Of a stretch of 41,164 bases of DNA, positions 1 through 5,336 are shown one piece after another. The notes below the pieces were generated by a model, which searched no databases, was not told the DNA's origin, and saw nothing but the letters and a program-made list of their open reading frames with translations. Where the stretch lies: assembly GCA_018623495.1 (NCBI GenBank), contig JAAZVP010000020.1:1-41164 (forward strand), in the 5' to 3' direction. Numbering within the stretch: the stretch's first letter is position 1; the number at the start of each line of letters is the position of its first letter. Both the position numbers and the translations under genes were made by a program. This DNA comes from Halothiobacillus sp. (GTDB lineage Bacteria > Pseudomonadota > Gammaproteobacteria > JAAZVP01).

Positions 1-25
1 CGCGACCGGGAGGTCGCTCCCACGG
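1..25 (-). repeat. REP-like palindromic element (copy 1)
   Basis: On the minus strand this reads GTGGGAGCG followed by the second arm of a hairpin (stem GCGACC / GGTCGC, loop TCCC). It shares the GTGGGAGCG head and stem-loop architecture with the copies at 125-153 and 23369-23396, but its stem differs by compensatory changes. It is inverted relative to the copy at 125-153, a BIME-like arrangement. It touches the window edge, so it may be incomplete. Confidence 0.6.
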
Positions 26-124
26 GCCGGGGATTCGTGCGGAGGTGGCCCAGGGGCTGATCGAGAACGACCCGGTGCAGGCCCGATCAGGCCCATCGGT
101 TAAGGCCGACACGGGCCCACTGGA

Positions 125-153
125 GTGGGAGCGGCGTCCTCGCCGCGAATCCG
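125..153 (+). repeat. REP-like palindromic element (copy 2)
   Basis: GTGGGAGCGGCG, loop TCCT, then CGCCGC and a GAATCC tail form a 6-bp GC-rich hairpin. It is nearly identical to the copy at 23369-23396, more than 23 kb away. It lies just past the stop codon of the last cas2 gene, the usual extragenic position for REP elements. The rest of 1-183 shows no gene and no CRISPR-type direct repeats. Confidence 0.65.
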
Positions 154-183
154 CCAGGGCATCGACCCGGCGCCCCCATTCGC

Positions 184-498
184 CTAGCCCGCTTTGCCCT
201 GTAGCCAGCAGGCAAGCGAGGAGTCGATCAGGTCGACACCCGCGGGCAGGGCCTTTCTGCCGAGGGTTTCGAGGCTCGGCCGGCGGGGCAACCGGTAGAT
301 GCGGATGTCGTCCCAGCGGGGATGGATGCACTCTTCCAGCTCGTCGCGCAGGTGCTGTACCTGGGCGGGGGTTTTCTCGACCAGGAAGACGGAATACTGC
401 AGGGGCACGCCGTGTTCACGCATTGCGCGGTGAACGCGGCGCAGCCGCCGCGGGTCCGCGATGTCGTAGGCCACCAGCCAGGCGGCGGGTCGGTTCAT
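184..498 (-). CDS. cas2: Cas2 (second copy), partner of the shortened Cas1 paralogue
   Basis: A 104-residue protein of typical Cas2 length with one ferredoxin-like fold. The first strand carries the Cas2 signature Asp (AYDIADPRRLRRVH, about residues 10-23), followed by the REHG..LQYSVF strand that marks the family. Cas2 dimers bridge two Cas1 dimers in the complex that inserts spacers into CRISPR arrays. The start chosen gives an ATGA overlap with the stop of the upstream cas1-like gene (495-498); an ATG two codons earlier at 504 is also possible. It is the last gene of a leftward four-gene adaptation cluster and is clearly diverged from the other Cas2 at 2244-2528. Cas2 identity is near certain; partnership with the adjacent Cas1-like protein is inferred from gene order. 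Confidence 0.9.
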   Translation of the reverse strand: MNRPAAWLVAYDIADPRRLRRVHRAMREHGVPLQYSVFLVEKTPAQVQHLRDELEECIHPRWDDIRIYRLPRRPSLETLGRKALPAGVDLIDSSLACWLQGKAG

Positions 499-1262
499 GG
501 CCATGCCTGGCCGGCCTCCCTGGCGACCTGTTCCAGCCGATCGAGGGCCTTGACCATCCCGCTCTCGCGGTCCGCGATGTGGCGATGCAGGAAATCCAGT
601 GCAACCTCGGCCTCCAGCCGCCCCTGCTCCACCAGGGCGCCGGTGGTCAATTGCCATTCCAACACGCCGAACCCGGCCAGCCGGCCGGCGAGGTCCCACC
701 AACCGCCCCCGGGCAAGGGGTAGCGGGTGTCCAGCCCCCTGTCCTGCAACAGCGCCTCTGCGAGCCCGCGCATGGCGGCGTGAACCGTTGCCTCGGGCCG
801 GCTGCGGGCGCGGGGGCCATCGGGTGCGGGTGCCCCGAGACGGCGGGCCAGTTCCCGCGCGCCCCGGTCCCGCTCGGTGTCGGCGTGCGCGTGGATCCGC
901 CGCAGGTGCTCGTTGCGCACCCAGTTGTCCAGTCGTTCGCCACCGCCCGGCTCCCAGGCGAGGCGACCCACGGCATCGCCCAGGGGCTCATTGCGCGATC
1001 TCGCGGGTTGCAGGCTGCCCAGCAAGTCGCCCGCCTCGTCCACGAAGATCACCGGCAGCCGGTGCTCCAGGCACAGCCGGGTGGCCGAGGCCGACCAGTG
1101 GTGCCTGGCCTGGCTGATGACCCGGTGGATGCGGCTGACGGGGTAACGCGCCGGAGCCCGCTCGGCGTGTTCCACCCGCAGCGCTGGCCCGTCCACGTCC
1201 ACGCGGGCCGTGCCGGCGTCGAGCAGGTAGACCGGCAGCCGGCGGGGCAGGTTGTCATCCAT
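495..1262 (-). CDS. Shortened, probably catalytically inactive Cas1 paralogue
   Basis: A 255-residue protein, about 70 residues shorter than the adjacent Cas1. Residues 8-85 look like the Cas1 N-terminal beta domain (YLLDAGTARVDVDG, VSRIHRVI, LPVIFVDEAGDLLGSLQP). Residues 110-255 are helical, with LDNWVRNEHLRRI resembling the first helices of the Cas1 catalytic domain. The active-site landmarks of the neighbour (the Glu of RGVEG, the His of GFYH, the Glu of DLIEPLRP) have no visible equivalents: the segment for the first seems deleted, and YPLPGGG and RLAGFGVLEW occupy the places of the other two. It overlaps the cas1 stop by 8 nt and couples to cas2 by ATGA. A structural or regulatory Cas1 subunit, perhaps in a heteromeric integrase, is the best guess. 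Homology to Cas1 rests on pattern and context, not on an alignment search. Confidence 0.75.
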   Translation of the reverse strand: MDDNLPRRLPVYLLDAGTARVDVDGPALRVEHAERAPARYPVSRIHRVISQARHHWSASATRLCLEHRLPVIFVDEAGDLLGSLQPARSRNEPLGDAVGRLAWEPGGGERLDNWVRNEHLRRIHAHADTERDRGARELARRLGAPAPDGPRARSRPEATVHAAMRGLAEALLQDRGLDTRYPLPGGGWWDLAGRLAGFGVLEWQLTTGALVEQGRLEAEVALDFLHRHIADRESGMVKALDRLEQVAREAGQAWP

Positions 1263-2238
1263 TGATCCAGTCCTCCTCGCTGAAGACGTCCAGTTGCCGT
1301 TCGCCGTCGGACCGCAGGAACCGGGCGAGGCCCAGGCACTCCCGACGGAGCAGTCGCCGACGGGCCCGGGCGTCCTGTTCCCACGCGGGATAGAAGCGGG
1401 CGCGCCCTTCCTTCACGAGCAGGCAGGCCCCATCCCGGTATTCGAAGTGGTGGGCCCGAAGCCGGCGGTCGCGGAACAGCCGCAGGACGAAGGCGTCCAC
1501 CGCGGGCCGCAGGGGCTCGATCAGGTCCGAGGCCAGGGATTCACGGCCGTGGGCGGGCCGGTGGTAGAAGCCGATCATCGGGTCCAGGCCGGCGATATGG
1601 GCGGCACGCACGGCATCGAAGTGCAGCAGCGTGTAGCCCAGTGACAGGCAGGCATTGACCGGGTCCCGCGGCGGCCTACGGTTGCGGCCGGAAAAACCGA
1701 GGGCGGGCGGAAACAGGGCCGCGAGTCCCGCGAAGTAGCCGCGGGCGGCCGCGCCCTCGACACCCCGCAGCGCCACGACGTGTTTGTGGGTGTCCACGCG
1801 GGCGAGGAGCCCCTCCAGCGAGGCCAGCGCGTCGAACAGCGGCTTTCGCCGGTCGGGACGGTCGCCCAGGGCCCGGTCAAGCATCCGTTTCTGCCGACGG
1901 ATCTTGGCCCGCACGATGCCTGCCGCCCAGTCTCGCCGGAAGGCGGAATCGTGTACGCGACCGGCCTGGCCCAGCCGGATGGCGGCATCGTTGTGGGCCG
2001 GCCCGAGGACCAGGGCGCGTCTTTCCAGCTTGCGCTTGGCGAGCAGCAGCAACGTCACCCCGGCCTCGGCAAGGCGTTCGATGACCCCGGCGGTGAGCTC
2101 GGCCTCCCCGTGGATGATCAACCGCTCGATGGAGCGGATGGGGATGGTTCCCTGGCGTTGCCCGGACGCGTAGATGGCGATCGCCCGACCATCGGCCCGC
2201 AACGACAGCGCCCGGTTGTCGAGGATCAGGGTGCTCAT
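1255..2238 (-). CDS. cas1: CRISPR-associated endonuclease/integrase Cas1
   Basis: A full-length Cas1 of 327 residues. It catalyses integration of new spacers at the CRISPR leader-repeat junction together with Cas2. Residues 1-75 form the beta-sandwich domain (LILDNRALSLRADG, VTLLLLAKRK). The helical catalytic domain keeps the metal ligands E161 (RGVEG.AAR.YF), H226 (GFYH) and D238/E241 (LASDLIEPLRP), so it should be active. The ATG at 2238 lies 5 nt after the cas2 stop and gives the canonical N-terminus. Its 3' end overlaps the start of the degenerate Cas1 paralogue by 8 nt, so both Cas1 proteins are very likely co-translated. No reverse transcriptase or Cas6 fusion is present. Confidence 0.95.
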   Translation of the reverse strand: MSTLILDNRALSLRADGRAIAIYASGQRQGTIPIRSIERLIIHGEAELTAGVIERLAEAGVTLLLLAKRKLERRALVLGPAHNDAAIRLGQAGRVHDSAFRRDWAAGIVRAKIRRQKRMLDRALGDRPDRRKPLFDALASLEGLLARVDTHKHVVALRGVEGAAARGYFAGLAALFPPALGFSGRNRRPPRDPVNACLSLGYTLLHFDAVRAAHIAGLDPMIGFYHRPAHGRESLASDLIEPLRPAVDAFVLRLFRDRRLRAHHFEYRDGACLLVKEGRARFYPAWEQDARARRRLLRRECLGLARFLRSDGERQLDVFSEEDWING

Positions 2239-2243
2239 GGTCC

Positions 2244-2528
2244 TCAGCCGAAGTAGAAGTGCTCGGGGTCGGTCGGGGGCACGGCGATGCCCAGCGTGAG
2301 GATCGAGGCGTCCCGGTCGACGCGAATCAGGGCGAAGCGGTCGGTCTCCTCGTCCAGGAGCAGTTCCATGTCGGCGAACAGGTCGCCCTTCTCGGCATCG
2401 GTGAGAAAGCACTCGTAGACGGATTTCTGGCCGCCCGTGGCATAGCCCTTGACGATCTTGAGCGCCTCGCGAAGCCGCGAGGGGCTGGCCACGTCGTAGG
2501 CGGCGAGGTAGAGCTTGCGCTGGGCCAT
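2244..2528 (-). CDS. cas2: Cas2 (first copy), partner of the full-length Cas1
   Basis: A 94-residue Cas2. The N-terminal strand has the conserved Asp in AYDVASPSRLREALKIVKGYATGGQKSVYECFL (split here: Asp about residue 12, then the QKSVYECFL strand), and the C-terminal half fits the second beta-alpha-beta unit. The ATG at 2528 is preceded by a strong Shine-Dalgarno (GAGGAG). It lies 5 nt upstream of cas1 and 86 nt downstream of the membrane CARF gene, so it heads the adaptation part of the leftward cluster. It differs from the second Cas2 in length and in the loop after the first strand. Confidence 0.93.
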   Translation of the reverse strand: MAQRKLYLAAYDVASPSRLREALKIVKGYATGGQKSVYECFLTDAEKGDLFADMELLLDEETDRFALIRVDRDASILTLGIAVPPTDPEHFYFG

Positions 2529-2614: not shown

Positions 2615-3760
2615 CTATTTCAGCGTCAGGTCGTAGCCGCGCAGGGCGGGATCGGCCGACGAGTCGGGCCGCGCCCGGCCGAGGAGATTGGTGTCCACGT
2701 ACTGGAATCGCACGTCGTTGTGCAGGCTGCCCGCGGCCGCGGCGACGCTGGTCGGGGTCAGCCCGCCGGTGATGTCCACGAGGATCTCGTCCGCCAGCAG
2801 GGGCCGGCCGGCTTGCCGGGCATGGGCATGGACGTCTTCGACCGCATCGTTCACCTCGCGGTAGACGCTCATGAATTCCGTGCCGGCCACCGGGCCCCGC
2901 AATTCCACCCGGCAATCCGGCAACGCGCGGCGAAGCGCCCGGGCCAGCCAGTGCTCTACCCGTTCCTGCACCCCTTCCCCGCCCGGCTCCACCCGGGGCC
3001 GTACCAGGACCAGCTGCTCCAGCCGCCCGGCATGGTGGTTCACGGCCCGGATCAGCGGCCGCAGGTTGCTGCGGCCGTGTGCTCTCGTCGGCTGCTCGTC
3101 GACGTGACGCGTGGCCTCCGCCCAGGACCACTGCTCCAGTTCGTCGATGCCGAGGCGCCCCGAGTCGTCCGGCGCCTCGACGATCGCGAAGCGCGACATG
3201 GGGATGATCAGCGCACGGGCATCGTCCACCGGTGCGCGGTCGAGGCGTGCGTGTATCGGCAGCGCCCCCGGCACCTTCTCGTAGGCCCACCAGGCACTGA
3301 ACGGGAGCAGTACCAGCCCCACCAGGCCCTGTACCGGGTCGCCTCCCAGGACCCCGTCGGCCAGCCAGCTCGAGGCGAGGCCCAGCGCCAGTGCGGAACT
3401 GGTGGCCGCCCAGGCCTCGCCCCGGCGAAGGACACCCGCCGCTTGGCAGCGGCCGTCGAATTCTTGCGCCGCACCGGCCAGGTGCCCCGGGAGTGCCCCG
3501 AGAACCGCCAGGCCGCCGGCCGCTCGCTCGCGCTCGGAAAAGGCCAGGCAGGCCAGCAGGACAAAGGCGCCACCGTAGGACAATAACAGCCCGGCGAGTG
3601 GTGCCCAGGGCGCGTCCTCGGGCTGGAGCGAAAGGTTGGTCACGGCCATCCACGAGCCGTCGGCAAGCCAGGCATTGCCGAGAAGCGCCGATCCGACCGC
3701 CGGCACCAGGAGGAACAACCACGCTCGCCGGCGCGGGGCCGGGGTCCGCCGATCGCTCAT
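2615..3760 (-). CDS. Membrane-anchored CARF/SAVED-like protein, putative cyclic-oligoadenylate effector
   Basis: A 381-residue protein with an N-terminal membrane part and a soluble sensor part. Hydrophobic segments lie at about 13-33, 51-73, 82-98 and 120-160, enough for three or four helices. The C-terminal half has a Rossmann-like pattern ending in the CARF hallmark EILVDITGGLTPTSVAAAAG (about 325-344) and RFQYVDT; upstream are a beta strand (ALIIPMSR) and NLRPLIRAVNHHAGRLEQL. In type III CRISPR immunity such domains bind cyclic oligoadenylate made by Cas10, and membrane-linked CARF effectors such as Cam1 act at the envelope. No nuclease motif is visible, so a membrane-perturbing output is inferred. 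Its start overlaps the csx16 stop by ATGA, so the two are translationally coupled. The precise family is not recognised. Confidence 0.8.
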   Translation of the reverse strand: MSDRRTPAPRRRAWLFLLVPAVGSALLGNAWLADGSWMAVTNLSLQPEDAPWAPLAGLLLSYGGAFVLLACLAFSERERAAGGLAVLGALPGHLAGAAQEFDGRCQAAGVLRRGEAWAATSSALALGLASSWLADGVLGGDPVQGLVGLVLLPFSAWWAYEKVPGALPIHARLDRAPVDDARALIIPMSRFAIVEAPDDSGRLGIDELEQWSWAEATRHVDEQPTRAHGRSNLRPLIRAVNHHAGRLEQLVLVRPRVEPGGEGVQERVEHWLARALRRALPDCRVELRGPVAGTEFMSVYREVNDAVEDVHAHARQAGRPLLADEILVDITGGLTPTSVAAAAGSLHNDVRFQYVDTNLLGRARPDSSADPALRGYDLTLK

Positions 3761-4059
3761 GCCTCCTCCCCCACGGCAACGACCCGGAACTCGCGCAACC
3801 GGGCGCCCAGCGACTCCAGGGTATCGGCATCCAGCTCGCGGCCCCTGGCCTCGGCGGGCATGTCCAGCACCAGGTGGAAATACTGCCCGCCCCGGGCACA
3901 GACCTCGGCCGCCAACGGTACCGGCAATGTCCCGATGACCCGGTCACCGGGCCCGATCCGCTGGGGATCGAGATGTTCCACCTGCCGGTCCACGTCGATC
4001 CCTCGACGTTCGGCCCACTCCACCGCACCGGCATGCCGGCTGACGAAATAACGGGTCAT
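3757..4059 (-). CDS. csx16: CRISPR-associated protein Csx16 (VVA1548 family)
   Basis: A 100-residue protein matching the Csx16/VVA1548 family from its first residues: MTRYFVSRHAGAVEWAERRG, then VEHLD, GDRVIGTLPVPLAAEVCARG, YFHLVLDMP and RGREL. The family is found with type III CRISPR loci. Csx15/16/20-type small proteins are associated, from memory of recent work, with turnover of cyclic oligoadenylates (ring-nuclease-like); I treat this as a hypothesis. The gene is first in the leftward cluster and overlaps the membrane CARF gene by ATGA, which suits an effector plus off-switch pair. It is divergent from the NE0113-family CARF gene across a 164-bp gap. Confidence 0.9.
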   Translation of the reverse strand: MTRYFVSRHAGAVEWAERRGIDVDRQVEHLDPQRIGPGDRVIGTLPVPLAAEVCARGGQYFHLVLDMPAEARGRELDADTLESLGARLREFRVVAVGEEA

Positions 4060-4139: not shown

Positions 4140-4167
4140 TGCCCGGTGGCACTCGATGCTGGCACAC

Positions 4168-4195
4168 TTGACGAGTCGTGGCCGGAACCGATACC
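4168..4195 (+). promoter_or_regulatory. Candidate sigma70 promoter of the NE0113-family CARF gene
   Basis: TTGACG (4168-4173), 16-bp spacer, GATACC (4190-4195). Transcription would start near 4202, leaving a short leader that contains the Shine-Dalgarno AAAGGAGG at 4211-4218. The -35 is near consensus, the -10 is only fair. Confidence 0.45.
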
Positions 4196-4223
4196 GGCCC
4201 GAGAACCCGGAAAGGAGGCTGCC

Positions 4224-5336
4224 ATGCAACCCGAGGACTTCGAGCGACGCATCCTGCTGTGCGTGACGGGGCTCTCCCCGCAGATCGTTACCGAGACGCT
4301 CTACGCCCTGGCGATCGAACGCGACCGCCCCTTCGTGCCCAACGAGATCCACCTGGTCACCACCAGCGAGGGGGCCGAGCGCGCCCGGCTCAAGATCCTC
4401 GAACCGTCCAGCGGGCATTTCTGGGGGCTCTGCGAAGACTACGGGCTGGAGGCCGAGCGCATCCGGCTGGATGAACAGACCATCCACGTCATCGGCGACC
4501 AGCAGCCCCTCGAGGATATCCGCGACGCCGGCGAGAACCGGGCCGCGGCGGATACCATCATGGCCATCGTGCGCGAGCTCACCAATGACCCCGGGGCCGC
4601 GATCCACGCCTCCATCGCCGGCGGCCGCAAGACCATGGGTTTCTTCCTCGGCTATGCCCTCAGCCTCCTCGGGCGAGAACAGGACCGGCTCTCCCACGTG
4701 CTGGTCTCCGCCCCATTCGAGAACCACGGCGATTTCTATTACCCGCCCCGTCGGCCCGTGGTCCTCGAGACCCGCGAAGGTCGCCCGGTCCGCACCGACC
4801 AGGCACGCATCGAGCTTGCCGAGATCCCCTTCATCCGCCTGCGCGAGGAAATGCCCCACGACGTTCTCGGCGGCCAGCTGAGCTTTTCCGAGACCGTCGC
4901 CTCGGGCAAGACCCGACTCGAGCAGCCCCATCTCGGCTTCGACATCGAGTCCCGGCGGGTGCACCTCGGCCGCCAGGTCGTTGGCCTGAGCGAGATCAAC
5001 TTCGCCTTCTACCTCTGGCTGGCCAAGCGCCGGCACGAGGGCCGCGAACCCCTGGTCCGCCACGCGATCCCGCGGCAGGCTTCCGAGGAACTGATCCGGA
5101 TCTACAACACGATCACCCGCGCCGACCCGGACGACAACCGCCTCACCCGCGCCGTGGCCGACGGCATGGACCCCGACTATTTCGACGCCCGGCTGGCCTA
5201 CCTCAAGAAGCACTTGCGCGCCGCCCTCGGAACCCGTGCCGCGCGCCCCTACCTCGTCGAGCGGTTCGGCAGGCGACCCCACTCCCGCTACCAGCTGGCC
5301 ATCGAGCCCGACAGGATTTCCCTGCCCGAGCTGTAG
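4224..5336 (+). CDS. NE0113-family CARF-domain protein (Csm6/ring-nuclease-like)
   Basis: A 370-residue protein. The N-terminal CARF Rossmann domain opens with ILLCVTGLSPQIVTETLYAL (10-29) and includes HASIAGGRKTMGFFLGYALS (128-147), the glycine-rich ligand-binding motif of the family, followed by HVLVS. The C-terminal third (LSEINFAFYLWLAKRR, about 255-270, then a basic helical tail) looks like a winged-helix segment. No R-x4-6-H HEPN motif is evident, so RNase activity cannot be claimed; databases have carried this family as a CRISPR-associated ring nuclease. The ATG at 4224 is chosen over one at 4146 because AAAGGAGG lies six bases upstream and the protein then begins where the family does. 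It is divergent from csx16 and may read cyclic oligoadenylate. Confidence 0.88.
   Translation: MQPEDFERRILLCVTGLSPQIVTETLYALAIERDRPFVPNEIHLVTTSEGAERARLKILEPSSGHFWGLCEDYGLEAERIRLDEQTIHVIGDQQPLEDIRDAGENRAAADTIMAIVRELTNDPGAAIHASIAGGRKTMGFFLGYALSLLGREQDRLSHVLVSAPFENHGDFYYPPRRPVVLETREGRPVRTDQARIELAEIPFIRLREEMPHDVLGGQLSFSETVASGKTRLEQPHLGFDIESRRVHLGRQVVGLSEINFAFYLWLAKRRHEGREPLVRHAIPRQASEELIRIYNTITRADPDDNRLTRAVADGMDPDYFDARLAYLKKHLRAALGTRAARPYLVERFGRRPHSRYQLAIEPDRISLPEL

Follow-up and report, generated by a model that had tools for sequence, protein, structure and literature searches.

The four-gene module and its setting

Four CRISPR adaptation genes stand in a row at the edge of the contig described here, in the order cas2-cas1-cas1'-cas2', and the question they raise is whether a second, diverged Cas1 and a second Cas2 belong to one working machine or are left over from a duplication. 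The window (the whole stretch of DNA analysed, 41,164 nt) is contig C109, taken from the contig's first base, of a 2.46-Mb assembly in 110 contigs. According to the preliminary description the genes run leftward, with a gap of 5 nt between the first two, 8 nt shared by the next two and an ATGA overlap at the last junction, and all of this was confirmed in position and strand: nucleotides 2239-2243 separate cas2 from cas1, cas1 and cas1' share 1255-1262, and cas1' and cas2' share 495-498. The features are as follows.

2244..2528, minus strand: cas2, the first Cas2 (94 aa); PF09827, 1.9e-10; 'first Cas2' clade
1255..2238, minus strand: cas1, intact catalytic subunit (327 aa); PF01867, 1.3e-74 over full length; E161, H226, D238
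495..1262, minus strand: cas1', diverged Cas1 with no recognisable Glu/His ligands by alignment (255 aa); PADLOC PDLC01185, 2e-21; predicted Cas1 fold
184..498, minus strand: cas2', the second Cas2 (104 aa); PF09827, 1.5e-16; 'second Cas2' clade
1..183, no strand: REP-like tandem repeat, one unit (181-bp) at the contig edge; 96.7% identical to the first C54 unit
2615..3760, minus strand: neighbour, TM+CARF, a membrane-anchored CARF protein; PADLOC PDLC01053, 7e-16
3757..4059, minus strand: neighbour, csx16; PF09652, 6.5e-37
4146..5336, plus strand: neighbour, CARF protein of the NE0113 family ('ring nuclease Csm6' in NCBIfam); TIGR02584, 4.7e-73

Profile searches thus place the TM+CARF protein, Csx16 and the NE0113-family CARF protein upstream of the module. 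No RT was found among the module genes or the upstream neighbours scanned, and the downstream side ends at the contig edge. Past the CRISPR genes lies a gene of the SprT-like family (PF10263, 6946-7707).

After cas2' the window holds the REP-like repeat and then the contig end, at the place where most relatives have a leader and a CRISPR array. In relatives whose assembly continues, a type III array usually follows cas2' by 63-240 nt on the same strand; its repeats are 36-37 nt long and end in GGGATTAAGAC or something close to it. A minority of relatives have the array upstream of cas2 or gave none. The 181-bp unit recurs as 5.3 tandem units at the start of contig C54 (L192, 1-961), and the REP-like GTGGGAGCG... 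motifs are present in the genome as 125 exact 14-mer copies, compared with 2 for the reversed control. In this genome an array was found on contig C74, with at least three 37-nt repeats, GTCTTAATCCCTTCTTCTTCAGGTCAGGTATTCGGGC, and the leader is on the cmr6 side if orientation is judged by the GATTAAGAC end. Beside the array are genes for cas10/cmr2, cmr3, cmr4, cmr5, cmr6, a HEPN-CARF Csx1 and Cas6, and a further RAMP gene stands at the cmr1 position. The genome therefore encodes a type III-B CRISPR-Cas system, its Cmr genes with Cas10 being on a separate contig from the window.

Cas1 and its diverged paralogue

The window's Cas1 carries E161, H226 and D238, and Glu, His and Asp are invariant in 98/98 partner Cas1s; positions that switch with the presence of Cas1' do so weakly only (75, 252, 258, 264 and 304). 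The Pfam Cas1 model matches Cas1' at 3.2e-8 over residues 18-92 only, and the PADLOC profile PDLC01185 matches it nearly full length (residues 11-244, 2e-21). A Cas1' family profile of 58 sequences aligned almost end to end with the Cas1 family (hhalign probability 98.4%, E 4.8e-15). The AlphaFold (AF2) model of Cas1' has a pLDDT of 90.4 and a pTM of 0.86, and superposes on a solved Cas1 (9p1d) with a Z of 18.8 over 232 residues at 3.7 A; 154 chains reached Z >= 8, and the 50 among the matches listed are all Cas1 or casposase. Modelled in this way, the 495-1262 product has a Cas1 fold, with a beta domain and a shortened helical domain, and the possibility raised in the preliminary description that it might show no such fold fell away.

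In the profile alignment the E161-bearing stretch of Cas1 falls in a gap, the Glu segment being deleted from Cas1', and H226 has no counterpart; no column reaches 40% His across the 58 Cas1' sequences. The catalytic Asp position is R194 in the window's Cas1' and Asp in 44/58 relatives. As far as alignment can tell, the product is without recognisable catalytic Glu and His ligands. Conservation is strongest in the beta domain and first helices, at Y12, P41, R44, R47, W56, C64 and W114. The paralogue had earlier been described as keeping the beta domain and losing its ligands; the loss of recognisable Glu and His stands across the 58 sequences, and the first part was too narrow, as the AF2 model also retains the shortened helical domain.

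Distribution of the module

When 369 genomes of the class were searched for the family, the diverged Cas1 turned up in 19 of them, the present genome among these, and there were five cross-matches to ordinary Cas1; several weak PDLC01185 matches (L046-L051) proved to be of that kind. The order cas2-cas1-cas1'-cas2' holds in 19/19 of these genomes as far as the contigs reach, and six more genomes of the same phylum, outside the class, show the module, and in one of these the contig stops after the start of cas1'. Further relatives were chosen by Cas1, not by Cas1', to avoid selecting for cas1'. Among the 20 nearest Cas1s in the class (at least 41% identity over most of the length, the window included), 19 had cas1' between cas1 and cas2' and one (L100) had none there, and the best 80 named loci chosen by Cas1 from genome_contigs gave cas1' in 62/80. 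Named carriers include Ectothiorhodospira, Thauera, Rhodoferax, Malikia, Thiocapsa, Methylomicrobium, Thiothrix, Plasticicumulans, a Nitrospira and two Acidobacteriota, and the hosts extend over Gamma-, Beta- and other Proteobacteria, Nitrospirota and Acidobacteriota.

In the pooled, dereplicated set of 98 loci, 79 carry cas1', always between cas1 and cas2' as far as contigs reach; this count is slightly enriched, as the pool takes in genomes first found by Cas1', and the 62/80 is free of that. The full order is seen in 75/79 cas1' loci, which are all those with enough DNA, the contigs of the other four ending just after cas1'. Across the family the genes abut or overlap (median distance from the cas1 stop to the start of the cas1' domain, -2 nt), and cas6, cmr genes and csx16 are found in the module neighbourhood of relatives. 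The four-gene order is therefore kept in dozens of species, and the concern, voiced when the locus was first described, that the arrangement might exist in this genome only proved unfounded; relatives in the class, in the phylum and among named genomes rule out a private oddity.

A tblastn search of a plasmid collection with Cas1' gave no match. With Cas1 as query the plasmids gave one cas2-cas1-cas2' module and one Aeromonas plasmid match, and a phage collection gave no match. The plasmid module (L191) is on Sphaerotilus sulfidivorans pSna507_unt13, a 60-kb plasmid record, where it lies beside BREX-2 genes and has no cas1'. A decayed copy of the module was also seen at L108 (G056:C3, 4841-5958), where two cas2 genes that look intact flank a broken cas1.

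Selection and divergence

Estimated by the Nei-Gojobori method, with gene overlaps uncorrected and some pairs near saturation, dN/dS between close pairs is mostly 0.05-0.29 for cas1' compared with 0.04-0.32 for cas1. One faster cas1' group (L032, L036, L137, L143 and L149) lies at 0.42-0.64 in most pairs, while cas1, cas2 and cas2' of these loci stay at about 0.1-0.26; diversifying pressure on Cas1' is possible there. The ratios as a whole indicate purifying selection on cas1', and relaxed selection on the short paralogue, which the preliminary description had named as grounds for abandoning its view, did not emerge. A decaying, functionless duplicate would suit the faster group, the sporadic loss of cas1' among relatives and the visibly decayed module of L108. 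However, the reading frame is intact in carriers, the ratios are mostly low and some residues are near-invariant over very diverged sequences; purifying selection and breadth together largely refute decay, which we reject as highly improbable.

The divergence of Cas1' is roughly double that of Cas1 (median tree distance 4.5 vs 2.1). The distance matrices of all four genes correlate beyond shuffles, and the correlation between Cas1' and Cas2' is lost when Cas1 is controlled for (partial 0.08). A search for natural fusions of Cas1' with Cas1 or with Cas2' found none.

Loci that lack cas1'

The 19/98 loci without cas1' are mostly cas2-cas1-cas2'. A cas2' was located in 18 of them, and there the distance from cas1 to the cas2' domain is about 200 nt at most, which excludes an overlooked cas1'; on a quick tree of Cas1, ten form one clade and nine are scattered. 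Since these relatives manage without it, Cas1' is not essential to the module, and the Cas2/Cas2' pair is its more constant feature. The array period is the same with and without cas1', and so is the spacer length (33 nt with it, 34 nt without), on which no effect of Cas1' was seen.

These loci bear on three explanations of what Cas1' does. The main rival to a place within the integrase is that Cas1' is an accessory DNA-binding or docking factor outside it, binding leader, repeat or prespacer, or bridging the integrase to Cas6 or to the Cmr complex. The absence of cas1' from 19/98 loci, its twofold faster divergence and the cas6, cmr and csx16 genes near modules would all fit, but both Cas1 domains are kept in order, which would be needless for mere docking, and we regard this role as unlikely though worth keeping in view. 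The mirrored 2-1-1'-2' order, in which each Cas1 sits beside one Cas2, might also reflect two separate complexes, with Cas1-Cas2 integrating and Cas1'-Cas2' doing another job such as prespacer trimming or protection. Yet Cas2' persists where Cas1' is absent (cas2-cas1-cas2' in 16 loci before dereplication) and must work with Cas1 there; the loss of the Glu and His ligands from Cas1' and the lack of extra Cas1'-Cas2' co-variation once Cas1 is allowed for also make such a division improbable. Inactive paralogues that join complexes can act as negative regulators in general, and a Cas1' that damped spacer acquisition through inactive mixed complexes would fit its loss in scattered lineages. However, its tight coupling within the adaptation operon every time and its long persistence in several phyla suit a component better than a brake, and we give regulation very little weight.

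Two kinds of Cas2

The second cas2 had been called the diverged one in the preliminary description. By profile score the opposite holds in the window, where the first Cas2 (2244-2528) is the less typical (Pfam 41 bits; NCBIfam TIGR01573 18.6, under the cut-off of 24.5) and Cas2' scores 61 bits with Pfam and 36.8 bits with TIGR01573; across the family the second Cas2 does evolve faster than the first. A tree of 70 Cas2 proteins, built on about 100 alignment columns and with deep forks that are not firm, splits first-position from second-position Cas2 almost perfectly (2 changes vs 23 in shuffles). The same two clades are present in a cas2-cas2'-cas1-RT architecture of the same class, so the Cas2 duplication looks, on this tree, older than either arrangement.

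The first Cas2 of the window ends in ...PEHFYFG, a tail of the conserved [FY]YxG type. This ending is found in 68/74 loci with cas1' and 6/17 without, an association that reflects few independent events and that shared ancestry confounds, since ten of the loci without cas1' form one clade. In that clade FLIV or FMIV is the usual ending of the first Cas2, and Cas2' has a conserved ending of its own. In known complexes the fifth strand of Cas2, which follows the ferredoxin-like core, completes the Cas2 dimer and sets Cas1 contacts (PMC12259127), and by this analogy the [FY]YxG tail may mark a putative contact with Cas1'.

A candidate heteromeric integrase

Known complexes are built on a Cas2 homodimer that carries two Cas1 homodimers; each of the latter has one catalysing subunit, and the inactive subunits form the channel wall for the repeat (PMC12259127). 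What lets an integrase of twofold symmetry insert spacers in a single orientation and at one end of the array is a question that has been posed for type I-F (PMC12259127). The reading we prefer, and judge reasonably likely, is that the products of the four genes form a single heteromeric spacer integrase serving the type III-B system, with Cas1' in the non-catalytic position and Cas2-Cas2' breaking the twofold symmetry. Catalysis would fall to Cas1, with its active site retained; the non-catalytic position would go to Cas1', with its beta and shortened helical domains and no Glu or His ligands; and the core would be a Cas2-Cas2' heterodimer in place of the homodimer. With two unlike ends, such a complex could determine which of them faces the leader or holds the motif-proximal end of the prespacer. 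We infer the assembly, the Cas1-Cas1' and Cas2-Cas2' heterodimers and the role of asymmetry alike, and Cas1' is put in the non-catalytic position because it has kept the fold, has lost the ligands and has a gene that always accompanies those of an intact Cas1 and a pair of unlike Cas2s.

The earlier claim of one functional unit rather than decay is upheld by the Cas1 fold, by an order kept in dozens of species and by purifying selection on cas1'. For the heteromeric integrase we count the gene order, the Glu, His and Asp of Cas1, the fold of Cas1', purifying selection, the Cas2 clades, the tail and the correlated distances. Against it we count the lack of fusions, equal spacer length, the partial correlation of 0.08, the confounding of the tail, the fast cas1' group and the 19/98 loss, by which Cas1 can apparently fill all positions alone. 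That the integrase is intrinsically asymmetric, its dedicated non-catalytic Cas1' and heterodimeric Cas2-Cas2' letting the enzyme itself tell leader from spacer end, or one prespacer end from the other, with no need of DNA-induced asymmetry or host factors, is a tentative suggestion, in our estimate slightly less than even.

Comparison with known systems

As a gene family the diverged second Cas1 was known before, being catalogued in PADLOC. The PADLOC-DB entry PDLC01185, 'Cas1, diverged variant, second in the loci', is the same family as Cas1' and matches 58/58 relatives scanned, and the window's protein answers to that description in its near-full-length profile match and its second position in the locus, after cas1. 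The 'diverged variant' label may go back to the systematic neighbourhood paper of Shmakov et al. 2018. PDLC01185 is a labelled profile only, silent on cas2', gene order, ligands, partners and function. The four-gene module had been thought uncharacterised, and this needs qualifying: its second Cas1 already had a name, and the open-licence PMC literature, where absence is weak evidence, gave no functional or structural account of the double-cas1 module, the four-gene order or the Cas2/Cas2' split.

Canonical Cas1-Cas2 (type I-F and I-E structures, e.g. 9p1d and 5vvk) offers a structural likeness: Cas1' superposes on its Cas1, and Cas1 and both Cas2s are recognisable family members. Canonical complexes already have one non-catalytic Cas1 per dimer (PMC12259127), as proposed for Cas1'. 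They are built from one cas1 and one cas2 gene, however, and that of type I-F is described as C2 symmetric, whereas here there is a conserved second gene of each.

The type III modules with RT, cas2-cas2'-cas1-RT (L101, L103, L105, L106 and L109), have Cas2 paralogues from the same two clades, but unlike the window module they place both Cas2s before cas1, include an RT and have no Cas1'. In L101, L103 and L106 a coiled-coil-like gene of about 200 aa and a membrane-protein gene of about 355-415 aa precede the module; for the ones scanned, Pfam gave no match and PADLOC none that was convincing.

The three-gene cas2-cas1-cas2' modules (e.g. Aggregatibacter segnis L167, Candidatus Accumulibacter L160 and the Sphaerotilus plasmid) have close Cas1s, the same flanking Cas2 pair and the same repeat type where an array was found. 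They differ in having no Cas1' and, in the ten-member clade, a different tail on the first Cas2. RT-free type III adaptation is also little studied. In a natural integrase with its four parts encoded separately, what the catalytic Cas1, the non-catalytic Cas1 and either Cas2 contribute would become separable gene by gene, and the three-gene relatives without Cas1' offer a natural matching control.
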